Origin: Acanthornis magna
Taxonomy: Eukaryota > Chordata > Aves > Passeriformes > Acanthizidae
Assembly (NCBI GenBank): GCA_036785705.1
Contig: JAWUZG010000360.1
Coordinates: forward strand, 372,001-436,000
DNA: 64,000 bases
Direction of reading: 5' to 3'
Under the pieces are notes generated by a model. That model ran no database searches. It was not told the origin of the DNA and saw only the letters and a program-made list of their open reading frames with translations. Made by a program: the position numbers and the translations under genes. Below, piece by piece: positions 13,701 to 64,000 of the stretch. Each line of letters opens with the position of its first letter. The stretch's first letter is position 1.

Positions 13701-15328
13701 CTCCTTAGTTTATAAGGATTACTTTCAGTAAGACAGTTAAACTCAATATAAATGTGCTTTGAGATTAATACCTTGCCTGTTAATTTGTTCCCAGCTTCTC
13801 ATCTTCATGGTTAAAAATATACATCAGGTAGGAATCTGAATGCACTTAGTTTTGGCTTTTAGCTGACTGTTCTTGCTGCCTACCAAGAGTGTTAAGTCAT
13901 TACAGACATCTGGCTATATATAGAGAGGAAAAAACTGTAAATATTATTTGAATGCTAAGTGTACTTCAGGATTTTTAAGACATCTCACTATAAGCCTTAT
14001 TAGTCTTTTATGTTCTTGCATTTCCGGGCTGGTATGACCTGAACAGAGAGAATGAGATTGTCATTTCCCTTCTGCTAGGGGCGAATATAATTTATTTTTC
14101 TTCTTCTTATTGGACTCTCTTAACAGGAATTAAGGCTCATTGCTTTAAAGACACATGTGTTTAATAACAGGGATTTGATGTGTGCTGATCTCAGTGCCCA
14201 TATGAAGTCTCCTGCAGATCAGAAGCAGTGCACAGCTGCAGATATTTGTGCACATGAAGTGCCTTAGAGGACCACTGCCTAACTGCATGCATTTTACATG
14301 CTTTTCTTCTGATATGGATCTAAAGCTGCCAACAACAGCGTGGGAGCAGCAAAACTTAAAAGGAAAGGAAGGAATGTTTCCAATAAAATTTGCCTCCCTT
14401 GCATAGTCTAACTGACAGCAAGCATTCCAGCTTTGAGGGCTTCCAGTTGGCATTGTATGAAAATATATTTCAAAGTGGGGAGAAAATATGAATATAAAGA
14501 GGAGGAAGAATGAACTGCGGCACCACTGGGCTTCATTCACAGCCAAGGCTGTGGAGAGGGAAGTGGTGACAACTTTGGAGTTATATGTGCGTAAGAGCAA
14601 AGTTTCCCACATGTGTTCTCATCAGTATCACAGTTTGGGGTGCTTGGTAATGGAGGTTTGGGCTTCAGCCAGTGGGAGGCAAGGCCAACCACAAAGTTCA
14701 GATCTGGATCCAAATGCCTGCGTGTTTGGGAGTAGTTATCCCTCTGGTTCGAGATTTTACTCATCTTAGCCATGCACAAAAATAAGTAACAAACATGAAA
14801 AAAGATGATTTTCAAGTTGGAGCTGTAATACTTTAAGTATTTAAGCCCTTTAGCAGTTTTGATTAACCAGGGGATTGCATGAGATTTTGTGTGCCATTTA
14901 CTTTATTTCATTTTAGCAAATTTATATATGACAAATACTTTGTCATTTGTACTGCAGATCAATCTTAAATGAGCCTGAAATGAGGTTTGGAGTAAATATC
15001 ACTTGTGCCTCCATATCAGATCTTGTGCTTTAGGGAGCACTTGGTTATCTGCAGGAGAGAGAGTGAGCTCCTCCCATACTCTAAAACCAGCTCTTCAGCT
15101 GTACTAAGGGAGAAGAGATGGAGGCCACTGTGCTGGCAGTGACGTGGCAGCCACTTGCCAATGTCACAAAGCCATGGGCAGAAATGGCTGCTGTGAGTTG
15201 CACTTGCTGTAGAACATTGCTGCATTTTGCTAAATATCCTCATTTTCTGCTTGGAAGATCTGATTTTTTCCCCATTTCGGGGGACTCTGCTTCTACAAGC
15301 ATAAATGTGGACATTTTGTGCTTCTACT

Positions 15329-15384
15329 TATTCTACACCCTGCAATTAGGTCATCTTCCTGACCTAATTGCATGGGGTAGAATA
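15329..15384. repeat. Perfectly nested hairpin, 25-bp stem, 6-nt loop
   Basis: Two 25-base arms (15,329-15,353 and 15,360-15,384) are reverse complements except for two positions and enclose the loop TCTTCC. The innermost 13 bases (TGCAATTAGGTCA) pair perfectly. Weaker pairing extends a further eight bases or so on each side. The shape fits a precursor-microRNA-like hairpin or the terminal pairing of a small inverted-repeat element; the sequence alone does not distinguish these. The same hairpin is kept in the right arm. Confidence 0.8.
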
Positions 15385-15549
15385 TACAGAAGATGCTGGA
15401 GAGTGCTTAATTTATTTGGAGTTGAGGAGATGGCTTCAGTTGCCGGAGTTGGCACAGCAGCAGCCTACAACCATTGCTCTTGCACTTCTGTTGTGGCAGG
15501 AGCTCCTTGGTTCTTGGAGGTGCTAGAAAATCCCTGCTTCTTGTAAGAA

Positions 15550-15603
15550 GAATTCTTTGCTACAATTTCACCCCCTGAATTCTTTGCTACAATTTCACCC
15601 CCT
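15550..15603. repeat. Perfect 27-bp tandem duplication
   Basis: A 27-bp unit beginning GAATTCTTTGCTACAATTTC is present twice head to tail, followed by a shorter echo of its end. Both copies are kept in the right arm, so the duplication predates or was copied between the arms. A minus-strand open frame reads it as a repeated nine-residue block, but that frame has no recognisable product. Confidence 0.9.
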
Positions 15604-17698
15604 GAAACCCCCTGAAACTCTGCCTGAGTTGGGGTCAAAAGCACATCCAGCAGCTCCTTTGGAATAAGAGGCAATGGAATTGTGACAATCATTTTCCATT
15701 TTATTCCATTTCAACCACAGATAAAACTAACACCAATTTAATTAAACGATCTTGCATATATTGATCAGATTCTGAAATTTGCATTTAATACTAATAGCTG
15801 CAGTGGCTCGTAACATATTATATAGAATAAACAGGTTTTGAAGAGATGATTTGCTATGTTGGTGGTGGTTTTGTAAGAAAAGAAGCTAGTGGCCCTTTCT
15901 AAAAGCTTTGTAACTCAGGGTCTCCTAAATAATAAATGTCTGCCTTGAAAATAAGGCTGTCCCATGTTCCCTTGTGTCCTGGTGGTTAGGTCACACGAAG
16001 CAAACAATTGAGCAAGCACACTGCATAAGTCTGACAATAGATAGGTCCTTGGGAGCAGTTGTTCACGCTTTAGCTATTCTTTTAAAAGAGCATGATCATT
16101 CTAATGTAAACCAAAGGTGTTTCTTTTTTCCTGGTCATACAAAAAAACCCACATCTGAGTAGTCCTCATGCTCCTTCTAATTATACGACCTACTGATTTT
16201 GGGTTAATGTTCTTCGTTCCAATTCAGACTGTTCCTGTTAAGATGCAGCTGGCGTCAAAATGATCCTATCTTATGACTACTACTGTATATGATATAATTA
16301 AGGAGTAATCCCTTTCAAAATTGGTCATTAGCATTAGCTAGCAATTTGCTAAATTTGCTTCAAAAGGTTAATGCTACAGCTATGGTAAACAATAACTAAT
16401 TTCATGGGGATTTATTGCTGTTAAAAAGTATAATCAGTTTCTAATAGCAATACTTAATTTTTAAAAAAAACTGTAGATTGGTTGACTGCACTCGGATTGC
16501 TTACAATGGATATTTTCCTGGCAGATGGGTAATCCTCTGTTAGTAATTTCAATTCTGAGTTCTCAGATTTAGCACTTCAATTATGCATTCTTCGTTTGTT
16601 TTATTAATTGGTTATATTTGACAATGCTGAACTATACATGCATGCATAATATATGACATATTATTCATGAAATTTTGCAATGTGACAGGCTCTGGTTACT
16701 CATGAGTAATACAGCAACCGTCACATAATAAATAAAGTGACTTTATGTAAGCTTGTTCTAAGTCCTTAAACATAATTATCTGAATTGTTGAAAGGAAATA
16801 AGTGCTGAAATTACTCTGATGCGTGATGTAGTAATTTGAGGAAATAAATTCTTATGCAATAGGTAGAACTCTTCTAAAGATGTTTATGAAAGGAACAAAT
16901 GAGATAAATGGAGATATTCTGTGCTTAATACCAAGGCTGAAGGTGGCTGAGATTGGTGTGCTAACCCTTGCTGTAAATTTCTGCCGCTTTATTAACTGCA
17001 GCAGAACTGGATATAATTACATAGGCATAGAATTTAGCCGGGAGGGAATATTGCTACTGTGTGGAGCTGAAGTTCTTGCAGGGTAGGAAACACATGACTG
17101 ATGAATTCTGTGAGTTGCTGGAGAGCCTCATTCATGTCTCTGGTTTCATGTCTCTTCTGGTCATAAAACCCAATAACCTCAGCTCCCTCTCAGTGCCTTC
17201 AGATGCAAATATTCTGCCATGGAAATCTAAAGTAAACCTTTAGTTTGAATCAAACAAAATGAAAACAGTTTGCTGAGTTGCGGAGTCTCATTTCAGGTGA
17301 CTTTGAGGTGTGTGTGGCAGGTGTGTGCTGCTCTGGTGCCTCGTGGGAGCTGTGTGTGGGTGCGTTCTTCCCTCATTCTTCACTCCTCCTGTACTGCCTG
17401 ACCCCCAGATCTCTGTGTGCAGAGATATTCTGAATTTGGCAAAAGGCTGAGTCTGACCACAGAGTTTGCAGGTGACGGAGAAGGTGAAGTGACAGTCGCT
17501 GGAACTACAGCTCCCACAGTTCTCCAGGGCTTGAGGATTGCAGGTTTTGCACTGAAGTTGTCTTTTTTGAAAAGTAACATTACATAAGGACTCAGGGAAA
17601 TATATTCCAGTGCTTGCATTAAATGTTTTGAGGCTTTTGTTCCAAAGTACTTTTGTTTGTATTGAAAGTACCAGGAAAACACTTATATTTTCAAAATT

Positions 17699-17722
17699 AA
17701 AAAAAAAAAAAAAAAAAAAAAA
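17699..17722. repeat. Poly-A run, 24 A (37 T in the right arm)
   Basis: The run has 24 A here and 37 T at the paired position in the right arm. The 13-base difference accounts exactly for the step in pairing sum from 78,243 to 78,256. This shows that the arms are two different molecules of sequence and not one sequence copied by software. Confidence 0.9.
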
Positions 17723-20130
17723 TCCAGAACATTTCATTCTGTAAAGCATTTTGATGTATAAAAACTCCACAATTTTTCCTTAGGCTGCATGATATTACAC
17801 TAGTCTTGTTTTTAGTAAAATATTTTTCAGTGATTTCTCACATTATATAGGGGTTCTGTATACAAAGAAGGAGAAATAATGGTTGCAGATAAATTTTTTC
17901 GCTTACTGAATTCCATAAAATGCATACTCACCTTCTTTGCACTTACAGAGTAAAATTATTTTTAAAATTTCCAAATATTTTGTTAAATCTTCCTTCTTGT
18001 TGCTTTTTTCTTCCCCTCTAAAGCCCATATTAGCATTCCTACTTTAGGACTTTTACCAATTGTTTAAATTACAATACAATTTTGAGATAATTCAACCTCT
18101 AAATAGCAGAATTTAGTAGCAAATTATCACCTTAAGTGAAATCACAGAAATCATTGATGCAATAATCCATTACACTTTTGTTACCAGTTTCTTGTTGGTT
18201 GTTATTCACCTGCATTACAGTCAGTAACTTCACAGGAGAAAAGCAGACCTCAGTAGAAAGAACATCAACCAACCTGGTCAAGACTACCACCTCCAAATTT
18301 ACAGTTTTTATTATATTTTTATATTTATATTATATTCATATGCTCTGGACAGTTCCTCCAGCTTCATTTAGACAGGGTCAATAGAACCTAACCGTTCTTT
18401 TCTGGGTTTCTAGAGAGAATTAGAAAATAGTATCTGTTCATTTCCTTGCAAATCTCAACATTTTATCAAGACAGGAATGCATTACTGCAAAGAGTTCATT
18501 TGTGAAGCAGGTTCCACAGATTAAAGATTTAAATAGGTATTTTTTTTGTGATTGTCATTTTTGTTTCCCTTTTGAATTGTCTTTAAAGACAAACTGGCAG
18601 CCTTGTAAATTAAATAGAAATTGTTATGTCTGAAATTCATGTGCATTCATTAATATTGGAAGTTAATGTTATAAAAATCTTCAGCCATATCATAATCTCT
18701 TTAAGTGCTACTAATGCATACTCATACTTTTCTTATGTTGTCTTCTGTCACTAAAAAGTAGATTCTGCTTTCATTTACTGTAGCTACAAACTACTGACAG
18801 CATAGCTCATTTCCGAGCATGTAAAACTGTAATTAAGATTGTGGCATGCAGTTTTGCCTCCCTGGTGCACTACAAAAAGAAAACTGACTTTCCCCAAAAT
18901 TTCTCATCTGCAAAAGGAATTTTGGGACACTTTAAGAGAGTGCATTCAGTGACTTTTTATAATCTTTATTTCCTACTCCATTACAGAATTGCATAGACTA
19001 ATAGCACTATTTTTTTTAAGCAGAACTAGATTCAGCTTGTGAGCGGTAAACCACAATTCAGTAGAAAAAGGTCTATGTGAAAATTCATTGCAAACATAAA
19101 CAAGAATATCTCTGTTGACTGCACTGGCCTTGTGCATTTCAGGAGACAGAGTAGTCTAAGAAGTCAGTACCTCAGTCAGGACAGATGGATGTATTTTACT
19201 CTCTTTTAGTCTCGTTCTATCAGCTGTGTGATTCAGCTGGCATCTGTGCTTTGGTTTTCATGCTACAGATCCTGTTATATCAGTTCCAGTGACACAGAAG
19301 TAGTAATTCATCTGTATGCTGACTTTTCTGACACAGGTATGTTTGAGATCATGGAGGTGTTATTTTAAAGAGCACATTGTTACATTGGTCATGGAGTTAC
19401 ACAGCAGTGTCTGTTTTACAGAGAAGTGTGTATGAATGAAATGCACTGTTACTACTGAATAATTAAGCTTCATTGTGGCAATTTTTACGTATGAAGAGTA
19501 GGAGAGGAGATCTGTCAGTAGCATCTGAATAATAAGTCTGAGATGTACCAAATGCCTTGTGGAAATGTGGTTCCTAGAGCTGTTCTCCCATGCTGAATTC
19601 TAAATATAGGCTTCTGAGATGGAGTAAAATCAGCATTCAAAGCATATTTGTGTTAGGGCTGTTAAAGGATTTACTTCCCATTCACTACCAGCATTTTTGC
19701 TCTCACATTTCTCATCCGTTTACCTACAGACTTACCACAGGGCTTCATTGTGTGCCCTCTTCTGTCACACAAATGTGCTGGCTAGCAGAAAACCAACCAT
19801 TACTGTATTGATTTTCTTTCATGCCTGCAAGTCATGAAGGTTTTGTGATTAATATAAATCAATATTTGTGGTGGAGCAGAAAGTGATTTGCGTAACTGCT
19901 GATGAAAAAGAGAACACTGAAACTTTCATTCAACATCATTTTTATCTGTAAATATTTGTCTTAATAGGATTTCCACTGTACCAGGCTTCATACTGTGAAG
20001 CAGGAAGTTTTTGGTGTGATATTGGCAGAATTTCCTCAGCTGTGACCCCCTACAATTTTAACACAATTTTAAAAAGAGCTAGAATCTAAGCTAGATACCC
20101 TGCTTCCTTATTACTTGTTAGAGGAGAGAT

Positions 20131-20230
20131 GGGATGGGATGGGATGGGATGGGATGGGATAGAATAGAATAGAATAGAATAGAATAGAATAGAATAGAAT
20201 AGAATAGAATAGAATAGAATAGAATAGAAT
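20131..20230. repeat. (GGGAT)6(AGAAT)14 pentanucleotide microsatellite
   Basis: Six GGGAT units are followed by fourteen AGAAT units, directly abutting the CR1 fragment at its 3' end. CR1 elements end in a short microsatellite, so this array probably grew from the CR1 tail. The right arm has one more AGAAT-type unit, giving the 5-bp step in pairing sum from 78,232 to 78,237. Confidence 0.9.
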
Positions 20231-20330
20231 AGATTATTTCAGTTGAAGTGCAATAATCACCTAGTCCACCCACCTGACCAAGGACCAACCAAGTCAAAGC
20301 TTGTACGTAAGGGTCTTGTCGAAATGCCTC
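20231..20330 (-). mobile_element. CR1 LINE fragment, 3' part (minus strand)
   Basis: Read on the plus strand, the segment follows the reverse complement of the CR1 3' region: an ATCACCTAGTCCACCCACC-like block, then CTGACCAAGG and a conserved AATGCCTC stretch. CR1 is the predominant LINE of birds and other reptiles. The element lies on the minus strand with its tail microsatellite at 20,131-20,230. It is interrupted at GCCTC (20,326-20,330) by a solo LTR and resumes at 21,723. Recognition is from memory of the family, not from a search. Confidence 0.75.
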
Positions 20331-21722
20331 TGTGGTAGTTTTGCCTGGCCCAGTTTTTGCCAGTGGATAGGGTGGGGTACAAAGATGGCTCCTGCATGTC
20401 CTGAGTAAAGATTCTGGACATTTCTCCACCATGTCCAGCAGAGCCAATCTCTGATGGCTCTGAAGATGATGGACATGCTGCTGGCCAAACCTGGGCCAAT
20501 TAGAGATGTTAGTTACGCCTCTGTGAAAACATATTTAAGAAGAAATCAGAACAAGGTAAGCACGCACTTCTTTGTAGCCAGGGAAGGAGGAGGAGGAGGT
20601 AAAAATATGTGAGGGAGAACAACATGGAGGCACCAAGGTCAGTGGAGAAGGTGTGGGAGGAGGTGCTCCAGGCGCCGGAGCTGAAAACCCTCTGCCAGCC
20701 GTGGTGAAGACCATGGGGGAGCAGGTGGTCCCCCTGCAGCCCATGGGGTCCAGGGGGATGCAGAGAACCCCCCACAGCCTGTGGGGAGGTGCCCACGCCA
20801 GAGGAGCAGGTGGAAGCCTGCAGGAAGCTGTGATCCAGTGGGAGTCCCAGAGACTGAGAGTTGCAAAAGCCTTGCAGGAGAGAGAAAGGCCTTGCTCCCG
20901 GGATGGAAACAGCCTGGCCTCGGCTTGGAAGTCTGCAGCCTGGAGAGAATCTCGAACAGCAGCAATCGGGCGGGGCTGCTCGTGAGATTGGACCCACGCC
21001 AAAGAAGTTCGCAGAGGACTGTCTCTCGTGGGAGGGACCCCCATGGCTAAGTAGAGGATTCTTTTCCCCTGATGGACTGACCCTGACCAAAGGAAAACCC
21101 CCATGCCCTGCCCCCACCCCGGAGCTGTTGGTTAGAAGGAAGGAGGGAGGGGGTGAGCTGAGAAACGGCCTTAATAGGGAGAGGGGTGAGCAGAACAACA
21201 GTGTTTGTAGCAGAAGAATTGTGGCGTTGGACTGACTAAGAAAAGCCACATATCTTGCCCCAACCCGGATCTGCTGGTTGAATGGAAGGAGGGGGCGAAT
21301 AGAGAAACAGTGTCTGTAGTAGAAGAATTGTGATGGACTGACTTAAAGAAAAAACCCCACACCCTGCCCCTGCCTGGGAGTTGTTGGTTAGTTAGAAAGG
21401 TGGGAGGGGGTGAGCTGGGAAGCGGTGCCTTAAGAGGGAAGGGGGGTCAGTGAAGAAACGGTGTCTTGAGAGCTTATTTTTATCTCTGATTTATCCTCCG
21501 ACTCTGTTAGACTAATAAATCACTTTTTTTTTGCAACCTTAAGTTTCCCCGCCTGCTTTTGCCCTGAATCTAGTGCGTCCCCTTATCAGTGGTCTTATCT
21601 CAACTCATAAGTCCAGTGTTTTGTGTTAATTTTCCCTCTCCTCTGCATAGCTGCAGCAGGAGAGAGCATAGAGAGCAAACGTCGTAGGTGCCTGGCATTT
21701 AGCCAGGGTCAAACCCACGACA
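20331..21722 (+). mobile_element. Solo LTR of an endogenous retrovirus inserted in CR1, 5-bp TSD
   Basis: The 1,392-bp element begins TGTGGTAG and ends CCCACGACA, so it has the retroviral TG...CA termini. It is flanked on both sides by GCCTC (20,326-20,330 and 21,723-21,727), a 5-bp target-site duplication that splits one CR1 sequence into two collinear pieces. A polyadenylation signal AATAAA lies near 21,512, so it reads on the plus strand. There is no internal retroviral sequence, so this is a solo LTR left by LTR-LTR recombination. The family (ERVK- or ERVL-like) cannot be fixed without a library search. Open frames up to 246 codons inside it on both strands are not genes. The identical insertion is in the right arm. 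Confidence 0.9.
21074..21475 (+). repeat. Three imperfect tandem units inside the solo LTR
   Basis: Three consecutive blocks start with GGACTGAC (at 21,074, 21,229 and 21,335). Each runs through an A-rich stretch, CCTGCCCC-like or TTGCCCC-like bases, a TGTTGGTT/TGCTGGTT motif and a GGAGGGGG/GGAGGGGGTGAG purine block. Unit lengths are about 155, 106 and 140 bp. Duplicated blocks in the U3 part of an LTR are commonly enhancer repeats; that role here is inference. Confidence 0.75.
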
Positions 21723-21870
21723 GCCTCTTAAACCCTGACAGGCTTGGGACCTCACTACCTCTCTAGGAAAGGCTGTTCCAGTGTTTGACCCCCCTTTCAG
21801 TTAAAAAATGCTTGCTACAGTCCAGTCTAAAGCTCCAGATGAAGGGCATTAAATTGTTCCTTGAAAACTG
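21723..21870 (-). mobile_element. CR1 LINE fragment, continuation after the LTR
   Basis: After the second GCCTC the CR1 match resumes: a TTAAACCCTGACAGGCTTGG block, CTCTCTAGGAAAGGCTGTTC and a CCAGTGTTTGACC block, all typical of the reverse complement of the CR1 3' region. The element fades out near 21,870, as expected for a 5'-truncated LINE. Together with 20,231-20,330 it shows that the LTR landed in a pre-existing CR1. Confidence 0.75.
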
Positions 21871-24514
21871 AAAGAGTTGTACATAGTGTACAGGTGCAAG
21901 GTGAAAGAGTGTGCATAGTGATAATGCTGGGCTTTTTGCAGGCTAGAAAATTGCAGTCTTAGCTATATAGCTTATCTGCTCTTCTCTGTAATAGCAGGAG
22001 GAGAGCAGATAAGTATTTATACACCTATTTTATATAAGTTCACCAGTATTTCCCTTTTGCTTTCCTCATGCGGGATTCATTGCAGTCTCTTTTTTACCAA
22101 CCCTCTATAAAGAGATCAAAAAACAACAACTGTAAACTTTGAAATTGTAATTAATAACTTAATCTATTAAAGGTATGTGTTCATATGCTACATGCATACA
22201 AGTATAGTATAAGAGTATTATGCAAGTGATGGGGAAATGATTTTCACATAAAGTCTTTGTAGATATTACGGATGTGATTCATAGGTCAAATTGCAGCTAG
22301 AAATTATATTCTTCCTGTGCTCTTTTTTTCAAGAAAAAAATAAGCTATTGCTGTGGACTTGGTATATAATCATTTTAAGGCATAAAAGGATGTGTATGGA
22401 TTTTGAAAACTTAGTTACTGGTTTTCAAAATGGAAGAAATCCAGAGCATGATCCTCTTCCACACTTTTTTCAGCTGTTTGTACAAATTCTGCACAGAAAA
22501 CTGGCCTGCCACACATGTTGTAAAATATATATATATATTAGAAAACAGTTTTGCAATACTTCATTTTTCTCACTGTTATGACTGGATTTGTATCAACAAA
22601 TCCACCTTTTAAAAGCTTCACATTGTAAGTATGTGAGTAGCTCAGGGAAAACAGGTCTCTGATATGGGCTAGTAACTGAATGTACTGAAGTAAATGGTGG
22701 TTCTGTATCCCTTTAAAGTTTAAAATTACTTAAAACTGTATTACAGCTAAATTAGCTATGCTTTCGGGGCTACATATGTTTTTATATTTCTAAGGAACAC
22801 AGCATAGCAAATGGTCTAATCTGACTGCCACCGCCTGTCTTTGGACCTGAGTATGTGAAATGTCAGTGATCACAGTCATAGACTTTGGCAGTTTGTTGTC
22901 GATAAAAGATGTACAGTCCTAAACAGACATCAGTATTGTAACACACTGTAGAAAATCCCCATTTCAGTGTTGAGATATACAATTTTCAAAGTAAAGAAAT
23001 CAAAAGGGGGAATGCTTCCATCCAGCCTGTCTACAGCATGAACTGAGAAAGGGAAAAAATAAGTGATTAAATTTTGATCAACTTTATGCAGATGTTTGTA
23101 TCAAAGAACTCTTTTTGAATCTTTGTTTCTTGGTATTAGAAATGGATGTTTGGCACAAGCTGGATGCATAGAAGTCAGACTGCTTGTATTTTTTGGTAGA
23201 ATTAAGGCTGAGAAATGCAGGTGAATCCTTGGAAGTTAACATTGCATACACTGATGAGAATTGTAGAATGTGCAAATTATATGTTACACTAGATAGAGAT
23301 TTCCTTTTAATGCTAAAGAGTTTTCTCTGGTGGTTCTTGTATTTATGTCATTTGTGTGAGTGTTGTGTCATTTGTATGAGTGTTGTAACAACTAGTGTGG
23401 CAACAATTTTGCTTGTGCATGATTGCTGTCAAACTCAGTGTCCCAGAACCAAGGAATTTGCCTGATATTGACATGAGTCACTGGTTATCTGATGCAGAAA
23501 CAAGGTTTGCATAAGTCCCAGCACTTTACATCACTAGTTTGACCAGTAAATCATGTGTAGTTTCATTACTCTTGTTTTGTACTTGTTTTTGGAGACACTG
23601 GTATTCATCCCTGCCAACTGCTTGTCAGTCTGGTACTTTCTGAATGACTGCCTTGTCTCCTACTTCTGAATAACAGCAGGGGCAGGTGGCTGCGTAGTTT
23701 CCAATCAAGAAGGAATGCTAATGAATTATAAAGAACTTCTGACTTGCATTTAATAGCACCATGACATGTTATAACAGCCTGCCAAACACAACATTTCTTA
23801 TAAATCACACTTCAAGGGACAAAAGTATCCACCTCTCGTATCTGAGGCCTCTGCAAAAGTCAGTGTTTGAAGATGACACAATTTGCTCCACCTTGTAAAG
23901 TACCCTCTTATGATAAATGTTTCTTTCTTTCATGCACAAAATAAGATAATTTAACATTTTCTCGCTTCTCCCCAACCACAACGGCACTGAGCACTTTGTC
24001 TCATTTTAGGAAACACTCTATTGTTCTTTTGCAGGAAGAAAATCCATTTCAGGGATGGTGTTTGAATAATAATTGGCAGCATGCCTGAAGTATTGACATT
24101 GACATATTGACATTGACTCATTGGAGGCCAAATCTGAGTCGGGGTTAGCAGCTGTGCAGATAACAGGCACGGATAAGGGAACCATTGAAATGGCCCCATC
24201 TTGATTTGTATCCGCTTTTGTCTTCTAGCTGTTTCAGAAGCACAGGTGTTCTTCACTCTGGAGCAGTGAATTGCGGGTCCTCTGGCCGTAACCTCGCCTT
24301 CAGTGAGGGTCATCGGGACTTGGAACGGTGCTCTGGACTTGGTTGGTAAAGTGCCTGTTTTTCCATGGAGCACAGCTTCAGTCTCCAGGCAGGAAGAGGT
24401 GGGCAGGTGCGTGTGGAGAAGATGACGAATGTGCAGAGTTTCGGCAAAGTGGAACTTCCAAGCTGTTCGATACCTTGGCAAGGTAAGCTGCTTTCTCATC
24501 TCGCCATTTTTCTT
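21871..24514. other. AT-rich arm DNA without recognisable genes
   Basis: The stretch contains a short (AT)n run near 22,527, a direct tandem duplication of about 22 bp near 23,345-23,390 and repeated TGACAT steps near 24,095-24,115. No coding signature or transposon is recognised. A consensus-like splice donor (AAGGTAAG) occurs at about 24,479-24,486, but no exon can be supported. Few differences from the right arm were seen here. Confidence 0.7.
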
Positions 24515-25577
24515 GCCCGAGACTTCACTTGCTATGGCCTGCCACGCAATATTTCCTAAATATTTCCTCCTGTTGTCTCTCTCCGCCGGGGTTGTACGCG
24601 GACTCTCTGGAAGGCTTGAGGCCAGGCCTGAACCTATGTCTTGGATGTTTTTGACCACTTGGAGTCCTCTGTGTTTTGAGGCTTCCATTGACACGTTCAG
24701 CCTTAGCACCTTCCTTTCTTTCTCTCTTTTTCTTTCTCACTTTCTTTCTTTCTCTCTCTCTCTCTTTGTCTCTCTCTCTCTTTTTTCTTTCATTCTTTTC
24801 CTCTTTCTTTCTTGCTTTCTTTATCTCTCTCTTTCTCTCTATCTTTCCCTTTCTTTCTTTCTTTCTTTCCCTCATTCTCTCTTTCTCTCTTTCAATCTTT
24901 ATCACTCTCTTAATCTCTCTTTCTATCTTTCTCTCCTTTTTTCTTTCCCTCTTTCTCTCTTTCTCTCTCTCTTTCTTTCTCTCTTCCCCTCTTTCTTTCT
25001 TAATTCCTCTCTTTCTCTCTTTCTTTCTCTCTATCCTTCTCCCTTTCTTTCTCTCTCTCTTTCATTCTTTCTTTTCCTTCCTTCCTTCCTTCCTTCCTTC
25101 CTTCCTTCCTTCCTTCCTTCCTTCCTTCCTTCCTTCCTTCCTTCCTTCCTTCCTTCCTTCCTTCCTTCCTTCCTTCCTTCCTTCCTTCCTTCCTTCCTTC
25201 CTTCCTTCCTTCCTTCCTTCCTTCCTTCCTTCCTCCCTCCCTCCCTCCCTCCCTCCCTCCCTCCCTCCCTCCCTCCCTCCCTCCCTCCCTTCCTCCCTCC
25301 CTCCCTCCCTTCCTCCCTCCCTCCCTTCCTCCCTTCCTCCCTTCCTCCCTCCCTCCCTCCCTCCCTCCCTCCCTCCCTCCCTCGCTTCCTCCCTTCCTTC
25401 CTTCCTTCCTTCCTTCCTTCCTTCCTTCCTTCCTTCCTTCCTTCCTTCCTTCCTTCCTTCCTTCCTTCCTTCCTCCCTCCCTCCCTCCCTCCCTTCCTTC
25501 CTTCCGCACCCTTCCTTCCTTCCTTCCGCACCCTTCCTTCCTCTCTTCCTTCCTCTCTTTCTTTCTCTCTTTCTTTC
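24515..25577. other. 1,063-bp segment present only in the left arm
   Basis: The sequence on both sides is collinear with the right arm, but the right arm joins them directly near 53,715/53,716. The missing block consists of about 190 bp of unique DNA (24,515-24,705) followed by the polypyrimidine tract. The right-arm junction falls in a run of T and TTTCT motifs shared by both ends of the block, so a deletion in the right arm through short homology is the simpler reading. An insertion in the left arm, or an assembly collapse at the low-complexity tract, cannot be excluded. Confidence 0.9.
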
Positions 25578-25590
25578 TCTCTTTCTTTTC
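24711..25590. repeat. Polypyrimidine tract: CTTT/CTCT, then (CCTT)n and (CCCT)n
   Basis: About 880 bases are almost purely pyrimidine on the plus strand. The first third is irregular CTTT/CTCT. From 25,077 it becomes a long (CCTT)n array, changes to (CCCT)n near 25,232, alternates between the two, and ends with CCGCACCC interruptions near 25,503-25,530. Frames of up to 427 codons (Phe-Leu-Pro-Ser on one strand, Glu-Gly-Arg-Lys on the other) are simple-repeat translations and not proteins. Mirror-symmetric purine-pyrimidine tracts of this kind can form triplex (H-DNA). Confidence 0.95.
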
Positions 25591-25599
25591 CTCTCTTGT

Positions 25600-26560: not shown

Positions 26561-26569
26561 GGCGGCTCT

Positions 26570-27696: not shown

Positions 27697-27714
27697 GAGT
27701 GAAGAGAGGGTGAC

Positions 27715-28426: not shown

Positions 28427-28587
28427 GCCTGTAAGTGAGGTTCTGTCCTAAGTTACAAGTGAAGTTAAATAGAAGTCTTGTTCCTTTGTTAAATGTTTAA
28501 GTTTTAAGTAGAAGTAAAGTGAAAGTGCTGGTAAACTTTTAAGCCATGTTCCTTTTTATCCTTACCTCACTGTCCTTTTGTCACATG

Positions 28588-28591
28588 CACA

Positions 28592-50658: not shown

Positions 50659-50700
<42 letters not shown>

Positions 50701-51577: not shown

Positions 51578-51596
51578 GTCACCCTCTCTTCACTCT

Positions 51597-52722: not shown

Positions 52723-52779
52723 GAGCCGCCCGCTTCTTTCTCACGCTTTCTCTCGCCAGCCTATGTGCTGCCACCCTGG

Positions 52780-53690
52780 CAGTGCTCGGGCTCCTGCTTC
52801 CCTCCATCGGGAAGCACCCCCCTGGGCTTTCAAGCGCCTCCAGGAGTGACTTGCCAATGATTCTGCCCTCTTGGCGGGGGCGGGGCTTTGCTGCGCAACC
52901 TGCTCCTTCCCACCCCCCCAGCTTTCCCTCCCCCCGTGCCCCGCCCAACTCCGGCTGTGCTCCCGGGGTGGCTGTGACTGCAGGAAAGGGGCACCCACCC
53001 CCTCCAAATGGCACATTTCTGCCTCACCTCTAGACACAAGTCGGAGCGGCAGACTGCCTGCCACTGCCCTTTTGGCCTCCAAGCTGCCCAAGCTGGCCTT
53101 TGCAGGGAGCTGAGGGGGTGGCAGGGCCCTGGCTGTTTGCTGGAGAGGGCTGCCTGCCTTCGCTCGCTCGCACAGGGACTCAGTCTCCCGCGGCACGGGC
53201 AGCTGCAGCACAGTGTGCAGGCCAAGGGCTCATCCCTGCCGCTTTCCCACCCCAGGCGGCCCCCACTCCCCACCCCCCCGGCCTGGAGCAGCCATGCTCC
53301 ACGCCAGGACACCGCTGTCACCTGCACAGCCAAGGCCTCACAGCAGCGGGCCTTGCGTACCACCAGGCCTGCGGCAGGGCCAGCCTCGGGCCTCGTGGGC
53401 ACACGAGGAAGGGGCCACAATACTGTGTGCGCCCTGCCCCTGCCGCTTCTCCCCCAGCCTCTGGCCAGGCAGGAGCTCCCAGCCAGCCAGCCAGCCAGCC
53501 GCTCCCACAGCCAAGGGCCAACTGGCACCCTGGATCTTGCCCAAGCCAGGGGCCATTGTGACACGGCGGTGTTGTCACCGTGTCACAGGCAGGCACCCTG
53601 GAGATGCTGGCTGTGTTGACGCCGTGGAATGTTATTGGAAGCCAGGCTCCCCTGTGGCACCACGGTGCCTCAGGGAAGTGTGGAGACGGC
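52780..53690. promoter_or_regulatory. GC-rich island, right-arm copy
   Basis: Mirror of 25,600-26,560. GC boxes fall at 52,873-52,885 and 52,938-52,946, and the 9-bp-stem inverted repeat at 53,558-53,586. It has one extra CAGC/GGCT unit near 53,490 relative to the left arm. Promoter function is inference. Confidence 0.4.
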
Positions 53691-53699
53691 AGAAAACAA

Positions 53700-53730
53700 G
53701 AGAGGAAAAGAAAGAGAAAGAAAAATGGCG
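53700..53730. other. Junction where the 1,063-bp left-arm segment is missing
   Basis: The GC-rich side and the outer side are joined here through a short purine run (GGAAAAGAAAGAGAAAG). The same motif class is present at both ends of the missing segment in the left arm. Confidence 0.85.
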
Positions 53731-56361
53731 AGATGAGAAAGCAGCTTACCTTGCCAAGGTATCGAACAGCTTGGAAGTTCCACTTTGCCGAAACTCTGCA
53801 CATTCGTCATCTTCTCCACACGCACCTGCCCACCTCTTCCTGCCTGGAGACTGAAGCTGTGCTCCGTGGAAAAACAGGCACTTTACCAACCAAGTCCAGA
53901 GCACCATTCCAAGTCCCGATGACCCTCACTGAAGGCGAGGTTACGGCCAGAGGACCCGCAATTCACTGCTCCAGAGTGAAGAACACCTGTGCTTCTGAAA
54001 CAGCTAGAAGACAAAAGCGGATACAAATCAAGATGGGGCCATTTCAATGGTTCCCTTATCCGTGCCTGTTATCTGCACAGCTGCTAACCCCGACTCAGAT
54101 TTGGCCTCCAATGAGTCAATGTCAATATGTCAATGTCAATACTTCAGGCATGCTGCCAATTATTATTCAAACACCATCCCTGAAATGGATTTTCTTCCTG
54201 CAAAAGAACAATAGAGTGTTTCCTAAAATGAGACAAAGTGCTCAGTGCCGTTGTGGTTGGGGAGAAGCGAGAAAATGTTAAATTATCTTATTTTGTGCAT
54301 GAAAGAAAGAAACATTTCTCATAAGAGGGTACTTTACAAGGTGGAGCAAATTGTGTCATCTTCAAACACTGACTTTTGCAGAGGCCTCAGATATGAGAGG
54401 TGGATACTTTTGTCCCTTGAAGTGTGATTTATAAGAAATATTGTGTTTGGCAGGCTGTTATAACATGTCATGGTGCTATTAAATGCAAGTCAGAAGTTCT
54501 TTATAATTCATTAGCATTCCTTCTTGATTGGAAACTACGCAGCCACCTGCCCCTGCTGTTATTCAGAAGTAGGAGACAAGGCAGTCATTCAGAAAGTACC
54601 AGACTGACAAGCAGTTGGCAGGGATGAATACCAGTGTCTCCAAAAACAAGTACAAAACAAGAGTAATGAAACTACACATGATTTACTGGTCAAACTAGTG
54701 ATGTAAAGTGCTGGGACTTATGCAAACCTTGTTTCTGCATCAGATAACCAGTGACTCATGTCAATATCAGGCAAATTCCTTGGTTCTGGGACACTGAGTT
54801 TGACAGCAATCATGCACAAGCAAAATTGTTGCCACACTAGTTGTTACAACACTCATACAAATGACACAACACTCACACAAATGACATAAATACAAGAACC
54901 ACCAGAGAAAACTCTTTAGCATTAAAAGGAAATCTCTATCTAGTGTAACATATAATTTGCACATTCTACAATTCTCATCAGTGTATGCAATGTTAACTTC
55001 CAAGGATTCACCTGCATTTCTCAGCCTTAATTCTACCAAAAAATACAAGCAGTCTGACTTCTATGCATCCAGCTTGTGCCAAACATCCATTTCTAATACC
55101 AAGAAACAAAGATTCAAAAAGAGTTCTTTGATACAAACATCTGCATAAAGTTGATCAAAATTTAATCACTTATTTTTTCCCTTTCTCAGTTCATGCTGTA
55201 GACAGGCTGGATGGAAGCATTCCCCCTTTTGATTTCTTTACTTTGAAAATTGTATATCTCAACACTGAAATGGGGATTTTCTACAGTGTGTTACAATACT
55301 GATGTCTGTTTAGGACTGTACATCTTTTATCGACAACAAACTGCCAAAGTCTATGACTGTGATCACTGACATTTCACATACTCAGGTCCAAAGACAGGCG
55401 GTGGCAGTCAGATTAGACCATTTGCTATGCTGTGTTCCTTAGAAATATAAAAACATATGTAGCCCCGAAAGCATAGCTAATTTAGCTGTAATACAGTTTT
55501 AAGTAATTTTAAACTTTAAAGGGATACAGAACCACCATTTACTTCAGTACATTCAGTTACTAGCCCATATCAGAGACCTGTTTTCCCTGAGCTACTCACA
55601 TACTTACAATGTGAAGCTTTTAAAAGGTGGATTTGTTGATACAAATCCAGTCATAACAGTGAGAAAAATGAAGTATTGCAAAACTGTTTTCTAATATATA
55701 TATATATTTTACAACATGTGTGGCAGGCCAGTTTTCTGTGCAGAATTTGTACAAACAGCTGAAAAAAGTGTGGAAGAGGATCATGCTCTGGATTTCTTCC
55801 ATTTTGAAAACCAGTAACTAAGTTTTCAAAATCCATACACATCCTTTTATGCCTTAAAATGATTATATACCAAGTCCACAGCAATAGCTTATTTTTTTCT
55901 TGAAAAAAAGAGCACAGGAAGAATATAATTTCTAGCTGCAATTTGACCTATGAATCACATCCGTAATATCTACAAAGACTTTATGTGAAAATCATTTCCC
56001 CATCACTTGCATAATACTCTTATACTATACTTGTATGCATGTAGCATATGAACACATACCTTTAATAGATTAAGTTATTAATTACAATTTCAAAGTTTAC
56101 AGTTGTTGTTTTTTGATCTCTTTATAGAGGGTTGGTAAAAAAGAGACTGCAATGAATCCCGCATGAGGAAAGCAAAAGGGAAATACTGGTGAACTTATAT
56201 AAAATAGGTGTATAAATACTTATCTGCTCTCCTCCTGCTATTACAGAGAAGAGCAGATAAGCTATATAGCTAAGACTGCAATTTTCTAGCCTGCAAAAAG
56301 CCCAGCATTATCACTATGCACACTCTTTCACCTTGCACCTGTACACTATGTACAACTCTTT
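53717..56361. other. AT-rich right-arm DNA, mirror of 21,871-24,514
   Basis: No gene or transposon recognised. A few substitutions relative to the left arm are visible, for example near 53,865, 54,325 and 54,442. Confidence 0.7.
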
Positions 56362-56509
56362 CAGTTTTCAAGGAACAATTTAATGCCCTTCATCTGGAGC
56401 TTTAGACTGGACTGTAGCAAGCATTTTTTAACTGAAAGGGGGGTCAAACACTGGAACAGCCTTTCCTAGAGAGGTAGTGAGGTCCCAAGCCTGTCAGGGT
56501 TTAAGAGGC
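56362..56509 (+). mobile_element. CR1 LINE fragment, right-arm copy (5' side)
   Basis: Mirror of 21,723-21,870, here in CR1 sense orientation: a GGTCAAACACTGGAACAGCC block and CTAGAGAGGTAGTGAGG are characteristic of the CR1 3' region. It ends at GAGGC (56,505-56,509), the target duplication of the LTR. Confidence 0.75.
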
Positions 56510-57901
56510 TGTCGTGGGTTTGACCCTGGCTAAATGCCAGGCACCTACGACGTTTGCTCTCTATGCTCTCTCCTGCTGCAGCTATGCAGAGGAGAGGGAA
56601 AATTAACACAAAACACTGGACTTATGAGTTGAGATAAGACCACTGATAAGGGGACGCACTAGATTCAGGGCAAAAGCAGGCGGGGAAACTTAAGGTTGCA
56701 AAAAAAAAGTGATTTATTAGTCTAACAGAGTCGGAGGATAAATCAGAGATAAAAATAAGCTCTCAAGACACCGTTTCTTCACTGACCCCCCTTCCCTCTT
56801 AAGGCACCGCTTCCCAGCTCACCCCCTCCCACCTTTCTAACTAACCAACAACTCCCAGGCAGGGGCAGGGTGTGGGGTTTTTTCTTTAAGTCAGTCCATC
56901 ACAATTCTTCTACTACAGACACTGTTTCTCTATTCGCCCCCTCCTTCCATTCAACCAGCAGATCCGGGTTGGGGCAAGATATGTGGCTTTTCTTAGTCAG
57001 TCCAACGCCACAATTCTTCTGCTACAAACACTGTTGTTCTGCTCACCCCTCTCCCTATTAAGGCCGTTTCTCAGCTCACCCCCTCCCTCCTTCCTTCTAA
57101 CCAACAGCTCCGGGGTGGGGGCAGGGCATGGGGGTTTTCCTTTGGTCAGGGTCAGTCCATCAGGGGAAAAGAATCCTCTACTTAGCCATGGGGGTCCCTC
57201 CCACGAGAGACAGTCCTCTGCGAACTTCTTTGGCGTGGGTCCAATCTCACGAGCAGCCCCGCCCGATTGCTGCTGTTCGAGATTCTCTCCAGGCTGCAGA
57301 CTTCCAAGCCGAGGCCAGGCTGTTTCCATCCCGGGAGCAAGGCCTTTCTCTCTCCTGCAAGGCTTTTGCAACTCTCAGTCTCTGGGACTCCCACTGGATC
57401 ACAGCTTCCTGCAGGCTTCCACCTGCTCCTCTGGCGTGGGCACCTCCCCACAGGCTGTGGGGGGTTCTCTGCATCCCCCTGGACCCCATGGGCTGCAGGG
57501 GGACCACCTGCTCCCCCATGGTCTTCACCACGGCTGGCAGAGGGTTTTCAGCTCCGGCGCCTGGAGCACCTCCTCCCACACCTTCTCCACTGACCTTGGT
57601 GCCTCCATGTTGTTCTCCCTCACATATTTTTACCTCCTCCTCCTCCTTCCCTGGCTACAAAGAAGTGCGTGCTTACCTTGTTTTGATTTCTTCTTAAATA
57701 TGTTTTCACAGAGGCGTAACTAACATCTCTAATTGGCCCAGGTTTGGCCAGCAGCATGTCCATCATCTTCAGAGCCATCAGAGATTGGCTCTGCTGGACA
57801 TGGTGGAGAAATGTCCAGAATCTTTACTCAGGACATGCAGGAGCCATCTTTGTACCCCACCCTATCCACTGGCAAAAACTGGGCCAGGCAAAACTACCAC
57901 A
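56510..57901 (-). mobile_element. Solo LTR, right-arm copy
   Basis: Same 1,392-bp length, same TG...CA ends (reverse complement) and same 5-bp target duplication GAGGC (56,505-56,509 and 57,902-57,906). Internal tandem units map to 56,757-57,158. The shared insertion site shows that the LTR was present before the arms were duplicated, or was copied between them. Confidence 0.9.
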
Positions 57902-58000
57902 GAGGCATTTCGACAAGACCCTTACGTACAAGCTTTGACTTGGTTGGTCCTTGGTCAGGTGGGTGGACTAGGTGATTATTGCACTTCAACTGAAATAATC
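57902..58000 (+). mobile_element. CR1 LINE fragment, right-arm copy (3' side)
   Basis: Mirror of 20,231-20,330, ending in the pentanucleotide microsatellite as expected for a CR1 3' terminus. Confidence 0.75.
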
Positions 58001-58109
58001 TATTCTATTCTATTCTATTCTATTCTATTCTATTCTATTCTATTCTATTCTATTCTATTCTATTCTATTCTATTCTATCCCATCCCATCCCATCCCATCC
58101 CATCCCATC
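58001..58109. repeat. (TATTC)15 then (ATCCC)n microsatellite
   Basis: Mirror of 20,131-20,230, with one more TATTC-type unit than the left arm. Confidence 0.9.
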
Positions 58110-60517
58110 TCTCCTCTAACAAGTAATAAGGAAGCAGGGTATCTAGCTTAGATTCTAGCTCTTTTTAAAATTGTGTTAAAATTGTAGGGGGTCACAGCTG
58201 AGGAAATTCTGCCAATATCACACCAAAAACTTCCTGCTTCACAGTATGAAGCCTGGTACAGTGGAAATCCTATTAAGACAAATATTTACAGATAAAAATG
58301 ATGTTGAATGAAAGTTTCAGTGTTCTCTTTTTCATCAGCAGTTACGCAAATCACTTTCTGCTCCACCACAAATATTGATTTATATTAATCACAAAACCTT
58401 CATGACTTGCAGGCATGAAAGAAAATCAATACAGTAATGGTTGGTTTTCTGCTAGCCAGCACATTTGTGTGACAGAAGAGGGCACACAATGAAGCCCTGT
58501 GGTAAGTCTGTAGGTAAACGGATGAGAAATGTGAGAGCAAAAATGCTGGTAGTGAATGGGAAGTAAATCCTTTAACAGCCCTAACACAAATATGCTTTGA
58601 ATGCTGATTTTACTCCATCTCAGAAGCCTATATTTAGAATTCAGCATGGGAGAACAGCTCTAGGAACCACATTTCCACAAGGCATTTGGTACATCTCAGA
58701 CTTATTATTCAGATGCTACTGACAGATCTCCTCTCCTACTCTTCATACGTAAAAATTGCCACAATGAAGCTTAATTATTCAGTAGTAACAGTGCATTTCA
58801 TTCATACACACTTCTCTGTAAAACAGACACTGCTGTGTAACTCCATGACCAATGTAACAATGTGCTCTTTAAAATAACACCTCCATGATCTCAAACATAC
58901 CTGTGTCAGAAAAGTCAGCATACAGATGAATTACTACTTCTGTGTCACTGGAACTGATATAACAGGATCTGTAGCATGAAAACCAAAGCACAGATGCCAG
59001 CTGAATCACACAGCTGATAGAACGAGACTAAAAGAGAGTAAAATACATCCATCTGTCCTGACTGAGGTACTGACTTCTTAGACTACTCTGTCTCCTGAAA
59101 TGCACAAGGCCAGTGCAGTCAACAGAGATATTCTTGTTTATGTTTGCAATGAATTTTCACATAGACCTTTTTCTACTGAATTGTGGTTTACCGCTCACAA
59201 GCTGAATCTAGTTCTGCTTAAAAAAAATAGTGCTATTAGTCTATGCAATTCTGTAATGGAGTAGGAAATAAAGATTATAAAAAGTCACTGAATGCACTCT
59301 CTTAAAGTGTCCCAAAATTCCTTTTGCAGATAAGAAATTTTGGGGAAAGTCAGTTTTCTTTTTGTAGCGCACCAGGGAGGCAAAACTGCATGCCACAATC
59401 TTAATTACATTTTTACATGCTCGGAAATGAGCTATGCTGTCAGTAGTTTGTAGCTACAGTAAACGAAAGCAGAATCTACTTTTTAGTGACAGAAGACAAC
59501 ATAAGAAAAGTATGAGTATGCATTAGTAGCACTTAAAGAGATTATGATATGGCTGAAGATTTTTATAACATTAACTTCCAATATTAATGAATGCACATGA
59601 ATTTCAGACATAACAATTTCTATTTAATTTACAAGGCTGCCAGTTTGTCTTTAAAGACAATTCAAAAGGGAAACAAAAATGACAATCACAAAAAAAATAC
59701 CTATTTAAATCTTTAAATCTAATCTGTGGAACCTGCTTCACAAATGAACTCTTTGCAGTAATGCATTCCTGTCTTGATAAAATGTTGAGATTTGCAAGGA
59801 AATGAACAGATACTATTTTCTAATTCTCTCTAGAAACCCAGAAAAGAACGGTTAGGTTCTATTGACCCTGTCTAAATGAAGCTGGAGGAACTGTCCAGAG
59901 CAAATGAATATAATATAAATATAAAAATATAATAAAAACTGTAAATTTGGAGGTGGTAGTCTTGACCAGGTTGGTTGATGTTCTTTCTACTGAGGTCTGC
60001 TTTTCTCCTGTGAAGTTACTGACTGTAATGCAGGTGAATAACAACCAACAAGAAACTGGTAACAAAAGTGTAATGGATTATTGCATCAATGATTTCTGTG
60101 ATTTCACTTAAGGTGATAATTTGCTACTAAATTCTGCTATTTAGAGGTTGAATTATCTCAAAATTGTATTGTAATTTAAACAATTGGTAAAAGTCCTAAA
60201 GTAGGAATGCTAATATGGGCTTTAGAGGGGAAGAAAAAAGCAACAAGAAGGAAGATTTAACAAAATATTTGGAAATTTTAAAAATAATTTTACTCTGTAA
60301 GTGCAAAGAAGGTGAGTATGCATTTTATGGAATTCAGTAAGCGAAAAAATTTATCTGCAACCATTATTTCTCCTTCTTTGTATACAGAACCCCTATATAA
60401 TGTGAGAAATCACTGAAAAATATTTCACTAAAAACAAGACTAGTGTAATATCATGCAGCCTAAGGAAAAATTGTGGAGTTTTTATACATCAAAATGCTTT
60501 ACAGAATGAAATGTTCT

Positions 60518-60520
<3 letters not shown>

Positions 60521-60557
<37 letters not shown>
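60521..60557. repeat. Poly-T run, 37 T (24 A in the left arm)
   Basis: Partner of 17,699-17,722, 13 bases longer. Confidence 0.9.
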
Positions 60558-60562
<5 letters not shown>

Positions 60563-62661
60563 TGAAAATATAAGTGTTTTCCTGGTACTTTCAATACAAA
60601 CAAAAGTACTTTGGAACAAAAGCCTCAAAACATTTAATGCAAGCACTGGAATATATTTCCCTGAGTCCTTATGTAATGTTACTTTTCAAAAAAGACAACT
60701 TCAGTGCAAAACCTGCAATCCTCAAGCCCTGGAGAACTGTGGGAGCTGTAGTTCCAGCGACTGTCACTTCACCTTCTCCGTCACCTGCAAACTCTGTGGT
60801 CAGACTCAGCCTTTTGCCAAATTCAGAATATCTCTGCACACAGAGATCTGGGGGTCAGGCAGTACAGGAGGAGTGAAGAATGAGGGAAGAACGCACCCAC
60901 ACACAGCTCCCACGAGGCACCAGAGCAGCACACACCTGCCACACACACCTCAAAGTCACCTGAAATGAGACTCCGCAACTCAGCAAACTGTTTTCATTTT
61001 GTTTGATTCAAACTAAAGGTTTACTTTAGATTTCCATGGCAGAATATTTGCATCTGAAGGCACTGAGAGGGAGTTGAGGTTATTGGGTTTTATGACCAGA
61101 AGAGACATGAAACCAGAGACATGAATGAGGCTCTCCAGCAACTCACAGAATTCATCAGTCATGTGTTTCCTACCCTGCAAGAACTTCAGCTCCACACAGT
61201 AGCAATATTCCCTCCCGGCTAAATTCTATGCCTATGTAATTATATCCAGTTCTGCTGCAGTTAATAAAGCGGCAGAAATTTACAGCAAGGGTTAGCACAC
61301 CAATCTCAGCCACCTTCAGCCTTGGTATTAAGCACAGAATATCTCCATTTATCTCATTTGTTCCTTTCATAAACATCTTTAGAAGAGTTCTACCTATTGC
61401 ATAAGAATTTATTTCCTCAAATTACTACATCACGCATCAGAGTAATTTCAGCACTTATTTCCTTTCAACAATTCAGATAATTATGTTTAAGGACTTAGAA
61501 CAAGCTTACATAAAGTCACTTTACTTTATTTATTATGTGACGGTTGCTGTATTACTCATGAGTAACCAGAGCCTGTCACATTGCAAAATTTCATGAATAA
61601 TATGTCATATATTATGCATGCATGTATAGTTCAGCATTGTCAAATATAACCAAACAATTAATAAAACAAACGAAGAATGCATAATTGAAGTGCTAAATCT
61701 GAGAACTCAGAATTGAAATTACTAACAGAGGATTACCCATCTGCCAGGAAAATATCCATTGTAAGCAATCCGAGTGCAGTCAACCAATCTACAGTTTTTT
61801 TTAAAAATTAAGTATTGCTATTAGAAACTGATTATACTTTTTAACAGCAATAAATCCCCATGAAATTAGTTATTGTTTACCATAGCTGTAGCATTAACCT
61901 TTTGAAGCAAATTTAGCAAATTGCTAGCTAATGCTAATGACCAATTTTGAAAGGGATTACTCCTTAATTATATCATATACAGTAGTAGTCATAAGATAGG
62001 ATCATTTTGACGCCAGCTGCATCTTAACAGGAACAGTCTGAATTGGAACGAAGAACATTAACCCAAAATCAGTAGGTCGTATAATTAGAAGGAGCATGAG
62101 GACTACTCAGATGTGGGTTTTTTTGTATGACCAGGAAAAAAGAAACACCTTTGGTTTACATTAGAATGACCATGCTCTTTTAAAAGAACAGCTAAAGCGT
62201 GAACAACTGCTCCCAAGGACCTATCTATTGTCAGACTTATGCAGTGTGCTTGCTCAATTGTTTGCTTCGTGTGACCTAACCACCAGGACACAAGGGAACA
62301 TGGGACAGCCTTATTTTCAAGGCAGACATTTATTATTTAGGAGACCCTGAGTTACAAAGCTTTTAGAAAGGGCCACTAGCTTCTTTTCTTACAAAACCAC
62401 CACCAACATAGCAAATCATCTCTTCAAAACCTGTTTATTCTATATAATATGTTACGAGCCACTGCAGCTATTAGTATTAAATGCAAATTTCAGAATCTGA
62501 TCAATATATGCAAGATCGTTTAATTAAATTGGTGTTAGTTTTATCTGTGGTTGAAATGGAATAAAATGGAAAATGATTGTCACAATTCCATTGCCTCTTA
62601 TTCCAAAGGAGCTGCTGGATGTGCTTTTGACCCCAACTCAGGCAGAGTTTCAGGGGGTTTC

Positions 62662-62715
62662 AGGGGGTGAAATTGTAGCAAAGAATTCAGGGGGTGAAAT
62701 TGTAGCAAAGAATTC
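62662..62715. repeat. 27-bp tandem duplication, right-arm copy
   Basis: Mirror of 15,550-15,603; both copies kept. Confidence 0.9.
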
Positions 62716-62880
62716 TTCTTACAAGAAGCAGGGATTTTCTAGCACCTCCAAGAACCAAGGAGCTCCTGCCACAACAGAAGTGCAAGAGCAATGGTTATAG
62801 GCTGCTGCTGTGCCAACTCCGGCAACTGAAGCCATCTCCTCAACTCCAAATAAATTAAGCACTCTCCAGCATCTTCTGTA

Positions 62881-62936
62881 TATTCTACCCCATGCAATTA
62901 GGTCAGGAAGATGACCTAATTGCAGGGTGTAGAATA
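62881..62936. repeat. Long-stem hairpin, right-arm copy
   Basis: Mirror of 15,329-15,384, loop GGAAGA, with the stem retained. Confidence 0.8.
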
Positions 62937-64000
62937 AGTAGAAGCACAAAATGTCCACATTTATGCTTGTAGAAGCAGAGTCCCCCGAAATGGGGAAAAA
63001 ATCAGATCTTCCAAGCAGAAAATGAGGATATTTAGCAAAATGCAGCAATGTTCTACAGCAAGTGCAACTCACAGCAGCCATTTCTGCCCATGGCTTTGTG
63101 ACATTGGCAAGTGGCTGCCACGTCACTGCCAGCACAGTGGCCTCCATCTCTTCTCCCTTAGTACAGCTGAAGAGCTGGTTTTAGAGTATGGGAGGAGCTC
63201 ACTCTCTCTCCTGCAGATAACCAAGTGCTCCCTAAAGCACAAGATCTGATATGGAGGCACAAGTGATATTTACTCCAAACCTCATTTCAGGCTCATTTAA
63301 GATTGATCTGCAGTACAAATGACAAAGTATTTGTCATATATAAATTTGCTAAAATGAAATAAAGTAAATGGCACACAAAATCTCATGTAATCCCCTGGTT
63401 AATCAAAACTGCTAAAGGGCTTAAATACTTAAAGTATTACAGCTCCAACTTGAAAATCATCTTTTTTCATGTTTGTTACTTATTTTTGTGCATGGCTAAG
63501 ATGAGTAAAATCTCGAACCAGAGGGATAACTACTCCCAAACACGCAGGCATTTGGATCCAGATCTGAACTTTGTGGTTGGCCTTGCCTCCCACTGGCTGA
63601 AGCCCAAACCTCCATTACCAAGCACCCCAAACTGTGATACTGATGAGAACACATGTGGGAAACTTTGCTCTTACGCACATATAACTCCAAAGTTGTCACC
63701 ACTTCCCTCTCCACAGCCTTGGCTGTGAATGAAGCCCAGTGGTGCCGCAGTTCATTCTTCCTCCTCTTTATATTCATATTTTCTCCCCACTTTGAAATAT
63801 ATTTTCATACAATGCCAACTGGAAGCCCTCAAAGCTGGAATGCTTGCTGTCAGTTAGACTATGCAAGGGAGGCAAATTTTATTGGAAACATTCCTTCCTT
63901 TCAAGTTTTGCTGCTCCCACGCTGTTGTTGGCAGCTTTAGATCCATATCAGAAGAAAAGCATGTAAAATGCATGCAGTTAGGCAGTGGTCCTCTAAGGCA

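Follow-up and report, generated by a model that had tools for sequence, protein, structure and literature searches.

Palindromes with large arms have been described on the sex chromosomes of birds and primates. On the duck W, 38 palindromes of 15.2-345.5 kb are listed in the available part of PMC7787181; they are described as nested enriched repeats and are said there to lack robustly expressed genes. A W-linked palindrome of New World sparrows and blackbirds, which includes part of a CHD1W intron and bears signs of gene conversion, was reported by Davis et al. 2010, as cited in the excerpted text of PMC3403216. These two, the second as cited, are the avian W palindromes that we met in the open-licence literature. 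In the flycatcher, HINTW is named as the only ampliconic W gene (excerpt of PMC4468903). The primate Y and X palindromes have arms more than 99% alike around a nonduplicated spacer, and gene conversion between the arms was inferred (excerpts of PMC3403216, PMC3723533 and PMC8981503); the ampliconic Y of primates is gene-rich (PMC3403216, in part).

Since W palindromes are already described in the duck and the sparrows, the array that we report here is one more case of the known W/Y palindrome type, and what distinguishes it is a built-in comparison of shared and unshared flanks. Like the duck palindromes, it consists of large inverted repeats in a bird; the duck palindromes are described as nested enriched repeats, whereas the arms described here had no match to the one pol-like frame tried (PMC7787181, in part). 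To the duck case the array adds a third copy and a common flank, and its W linkage is a best guess. With the sparrow and blackbird palindrome it shares a probable songbird host and signs that fit conversion; that palindrome includes part of a CHD1W intron, and this one lies beside a SEMA4D copy (PMC3403216, in part). As in the primate palindromes, long inverted arms more than 99% identical flank a spacer present once, and conversion is invoked; unlike the gene-rich primate ampliconic Y, the part of the arm examined yielded no gene, and GC is not elevated across the arm as a whole (PMC3403216, in part).

An inverted repeat of about 370 kb

The window, a stretch of 64,000 bp at positions 372,001-436,000 of contig JAWUZG010000360.1 (C360; 692,635 bp, in a genome assembly of 1.48 Gb and 1,515 contigs), had been given a preliminary description as a giant inverted repeat with arms of at least 17 kb, about 99% or more identical, around a spacer of about 15 kb. 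Self-comparison of the window found both arms, in reversed orientation, as described. Window positions 14,260-24,514 matched 64,000-53,718 at 99.47% over 10,288 columns (17 mismatches), and 25,570-32,135 matched 53,723-47,157 at 99.85% over 6,570 columns (3 mismatches). Chance cannot account for matches so long. The inner boundaries at 32,135 and 47,157, described as sharp, proved exact to the base, with no arm difference in the last 4,493 bp before them, and the spacer came to 15,021 bp. The left arm had also been taken to begin at 14,261; this is no boundary, only the point at which the right arm is cut off by the end of the window. The one large offset between the arms is a 1,055-bp CTTT/TTCC array of the left arm, nearly absent in the right (Table 1). 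A 1.1-kb inverted repeat, which has short internal duplicates, is nested in each arm.

Table 1. Features of the inverted repeat in window coordinates.
Feature	Window position	Strand	Remarks
Left arm A, inner 32 kb	1-32,135	+	whole arm C360:225,887-404,135, 178,249 bp; begins 146 kb left of the window
CTTT/TTCC microsatellite array	24,515-25,569	+	left arm; also in the third copy (L073) as far as read; almost gone from the right arm (53,718-53,723)
Small inverted repeat within the arm	26,566-27,699	.	halves of about 0.5 kb, 94% alike, GC-rich; mirror at 51,593-52,725
94-bp stretch directly past the inner edge of the left arm	32,134-32,227	+	87% identical, inverted, to 46,631-46,724
Spacer S	32,136-47,156	.	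15,021 bp; matches to other stretches examined only short or diverged
94-bp partner stretch	46,631-46,724	-	432 bp, on the right side only, between it and the right arm
Right arm A', inner 17 kb	47,157-64,000	-	whole arm C360:419,157-596,404, 177,248 bp; extends 160 kb past the window on the right

Comparison of the window with its neighbours, a check proposed in the preliminary description, carried the arms far past the window on both sides, well beyond the 17 kb given there as a minimum (Table 1). Within the 200 kb examined around the window, the arms continued to the right end, where 286,290 pairs with 536,000. Further out, six of eight 400-bp mirror probes from the right side matched (543, 549, 558, 568, 578 and 588 kb), and those at 598 and 608 kb had no match in the left side. 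The outer arm ends, read across the edge, lie at C360:225,887 and 596,404. The inverted repeat is about 370,000 bases long overall, with the window at its middle. About 117 kb of each arm was compared continuously outward from the inner edge (286,290-404,135 against 536,000-419,157), as were 8.4 kb at the outer arm end; the stretch between rests on five of five 400-bp probes (543, 549, 558, 568 and 578 kb). Possibly, the 94-bp pair beyond the inner edges is an older, diverged remnant of the inverted repeat.

A third copy and a shared flank

A third copy of the arm, A3, occupies the start of the contig (C360:1-174,357) in the orientation of the right arm. Six of eight A3 pieces (L067, L068, L069, L070, L071 and L073) matched the arm at 97-100% outside the microsatellite; the other two (L030 and L072) were without counterpart in the sequence compared. 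Directly after both right-oriented copies comes a flank of about 36 kb, D at C360:174,358-210,178 and D' at 596,405-631,941. The right flank D' is a direct, not mirrored, copy of sequence that begins 51.5 kb left of the left arm. The direct match runs from D back into arm sequence, and the junction between inverted A and D was found twice, at 174,357/8 and 596,404/5. Beyond D the copies part, one passing into a stretch designated U and the other into SEMA4D. The order of the array is A3(inverted)-D-U-A-S-A'(inverted)-D'-decayed SEMA4D-tandem repeats. Because A3 has the orientation of the right arm, A and A3 make up a second palindrome, with D and U at its centre; the two palindromes overlap with one arm in common, and their spacers measure 15.0 kb and 51.5 kb.

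This arrangement bears on whether the repeat was made during assembly, by a chimeric read or by two haplotypes of one locus being joined head to head. The divergence of 0.18% between the arms (see below) would also be plausible as an allelic difference, but the 15-kb spacer occurs once, a 94-bp inverted match of 87% lies at the inner edge, the right arm passes into a direct copy of D and not into a mirrored left flank, the copies continue differently after D (U or SEMA4D), and no N was present among 269,501 further letters read. We regard such an artefact as improbable, and its plain form, an allelic head-to-head join, is ruled out by the flanks, which are not mirrored.

Strand-changing junctions together with a flank repeated in direct orientation would also suit the geometry of replication-based template switching (plus-minus-plus, DUP-TRP/INV-DUP-like) in one event, with gene conversion in a minor role, and rearrangements of this kind are on record in the literature, as far as the available excerpts go. 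The upstream A3, however, demands further copies, and the divergence gradient described below is left unexplained, which makes this reading very unlikely. A simple plus-minus-plus switch had been considered for the D copies and became insufficient once the third arm copy was found.

The region that follows SEMA4D seems to be a tandem array with a register of about 4.715 kb (C360:647,500-692,000), reaching the contig end. Eight probes were taken from 645.9 to 690 kb, and four of them (647.5, 675.9, 685.9 and 690.0 kb) proved to be direct repeats of one another, 98.5-100% alike and set apart by multiples (1, 3 and 9) of about 4,715 bp. Among the remaining four, similarity was shorter or out of register (L051 and L055, 93%; L053 and L054, 69 bp at 83%). 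By eye, probes L029, L052, L056 and L057 in this region are GC-rich and built of degenerate shorter repeats. Elsewhere, just beyond the outer edge of the left arm, lies a GC-rich stretch with open frames (L048:1-1021; C360:224,601-225,621), two frames of which gave no Pfam match.

Divergence between the copies

Across 127,187 aligned bases of the left arm, 230 SNVs separate A from A' (0.18%); one secondary 271-bp block is excluded from this count. The SNVs are clustered, with a variance-to-mean ratio of 2.66 per 2-kb bin that was equalled in none of 5,000 uniform draws. The innermost 4,493 bp are identical, and the outer 8.4 kb carry 39 SNVs (0.46%) as against 186 in 116,791 bases of the core (Fisher p 5e-8). 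Divergence of the flank was also graded. Summed over 11 comparisons, D and D' show 7 differences in 2,396 sites within about 12 kb of the arm, 26 in 2,400 sites of the middle pieces and 61 in 2,375 sites of the last pieces. The divergence rises from 0.3% next to the arms to 2.6% in the most distant pieces (near versus far, p 2.5e-12). A three-way comparison of A3, A and A' (4,749 columns, one genome) showed that the outlier copy changes along the arm: in the inner 1,500 bp it is A3, with 7 private sites against 1 and 0, and in the outer 849 columns it is A, with 13 against 3 and 1 (inner versus outer, Fisher p 0.0023). The other three of the five segments, of 800 columns each, had 1, 0 and 4 variable sites, too few to be informative.

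The uneven divergence and the switch of the outlier are more than a single age for each duplication can account for, and sequence exchange between the copies suffices. They are best explained, as far as sequence comparison can tell, by gene conversion between the copies and not by one recent duplication. It seems possible that the gradient in D consists of stepwise blocks of different age, left by successive unequal exchanges, and the identical inner 4.5 kb could reflect a recent duplication instead. The whole pattern might also be ascribed to young segmental duplications on the Z or an autosome, without gene conversion, the duplication that gave D and D' being older than the palindrome arms. 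The low arm divergence (0.16-0.18%) agrees with this, and the SEMA4D copy could be a tandem pseudogene on the Z. Without conversion, however, A3/A' and D/D' would be one direct duplication of one age, and yet divergence climbs from 0-0.5% across the arms and the near part of D to 2.3-3.0% in its farthest pieces; nor would the outlier copy be expected to change along the arm. We consider this explanation unlikely.

We think it rather probable that the locus is a multi-copy amplicon array which arose by inverted and direct duplication and was homogenised by gene conversion, on a bird W beside a decayed SEMA4D gametolog. The structure on the contig, the uneven divergence and the change of outlier are direct observations; from them we infer conversion as the cause, the order of events and the location. 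A unit of 178 kb is present in at least three copies of alternating orientation. These would have been produced by an inverted duplication and by a direct one that took along the junction of inverted A with D, at a distance of about 422 kb. Later, intrachromosomal gene conversion would have kept the copies alike, with most force inside the arms and less and less toward the outer limits of homology. The preliminary description had likened the window to ampliconic palindromes and to recent segmental duplications; the likeness is supported, and the third arm copy, the common flank D and the conversion-like divergence extend it.

The direction of the SNVs between the arms (112 S/W, 81 W/S) is unpolarised and so uninformative. 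GC content is 39.8% in the left arm (132,135 bp read), 41.8% in the spacer and 44.4% in the right-arm portion of the window (17 kb). Since the arm does not exceed the spacer, GC-biased conversion has left no sign when the arm is taken as a whole, a point against conversion. Among 80 small indel events, 36 fall within C360:294,000-300,000 relative to the right arm, a cluster that inflates the indel count and is perhaps a sequencing-error hotspot.

Content of the arms and chromosomal setting

The examined part of the arm yielded no convincing gene. A home-made exon finder, run without a positive control on 132,135 bp of the left arm and the 15,021-bp spacer, gave no credible gene, although a weakly scoring one could for that reason be missed. 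The bar was the best score of the reversed string (16.6), and it was exceeded only in GC-rich or microsatellite sequence (25.5-26.1 kb; in one instance joined to a partner exon at 30.3 kb) and by one three-exon chain (18.1) that spans the arm/spacer edge; a lone exon 47 kb to the left of the window scored 12.9. Pfam searches gave no domain over the cut-off in 10 window frames (four weak matches below it, E 0.011-0.1, in three frames), in five flank frames (two below it) or in eight further arm frames including the GC-rich part, two of them nearly identical. As to multi-copy genes in the arm, the 13 arm frames among these, five of the 10 window frames and the eight further ones, gave no Pfam family over the cut-off. 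The window held no tRNA, and neither the window nor 13 further pieces had an Rfam match at gathering score.

In the spacer, window 34,672-36,879 on the minus strand holds broken pieces that we read as retrovirus-like; a weak aspartyl-protease match among them lies below the cut-off. Reverse-transcriptase matches in our sampling were at first assigned to CR1, an assignment that was dropped; the translation resembles pol of endogenous retroviruses, and we take the frame to be of that kind. One such pol-like frame sampled from the genome gave one weak match, which lies in the spacer; the arms, as far as read, had none. W chromosomes abound in elements of the endogenous-retrovirus type, so the lack of a match in the arms counts against a W location.

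After D', at C360:632.7-635.1 kb, are two SEMA4D exons, the PSI exon and the last exon. The best PDB match of the PSI exon was 1olz, Semaphorin-4D (E 6.8e-16); the last exon alone had no PDB match. Its best homologue was the protein P0001 (288 bits), and P0019, which is named Semaphorin-4D, was among its 27 homologues. Against P0001 the last exon shows 35 residues without difference, after which about residues 41-131 of P0001 are missing, in our reading the Ig-like part; further on there are a gap of about 40 codons, a four-residue insertion and a frame change near the end. In the tail, the copy matches P0001 at 101 of 121 residues and turtle at 89 of 121, and P0001 matches turtle at 104 of 121. 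Three-point arithmetic then assigns about 17.5 amino acid changes to the contig copy and 2.5 to P0001, indicating that the copy is fast-evolving, as expected of a broken gene. Read from its sequence, the SEMA4D copy beside the array is decayed, with internal stretches missing and a frameshift.

Table 3 of PMC5698929 (excerpt) includes SEMA4D in a chicken Z region of 41 genes, and SHC3 and SYK, two further genes of human 9q22, are placed on the chicken Z, with GADD45G unplaced there (PMC1876622, excerpt). Among the open-licence papers searched, none mentioned both SEMA4D and Z-linkage, and the excerpted texts of PMC7692361 and PMC7599627 hold nothing on SEMA4D or comparable palindromes. The decayed copy beside the array, together with SEMA4D on the chicken Z, gives indirect support for sex-chromosome linkage. 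With a decayed copy lying in the repeat array, a W-linked array is our best guess; an origin on a germline-restricted chromosome is possible.

It is conceivable, though less likely than not, that the locus is a gene-free amplicon of a bird W whose three 178-kb copies have stayed near-identical through gene conversion alone, with a readable conversion gradient. If so, the homogenisation of palindromes would follow from their geometry, and not from selection that preserves genes. With its three copies, its shared and unshared flanks and its internal gradient, the array lets one ask whether conversion works without genes to protect, and it also permits the reach of conversion to be measured from the ends of homology.
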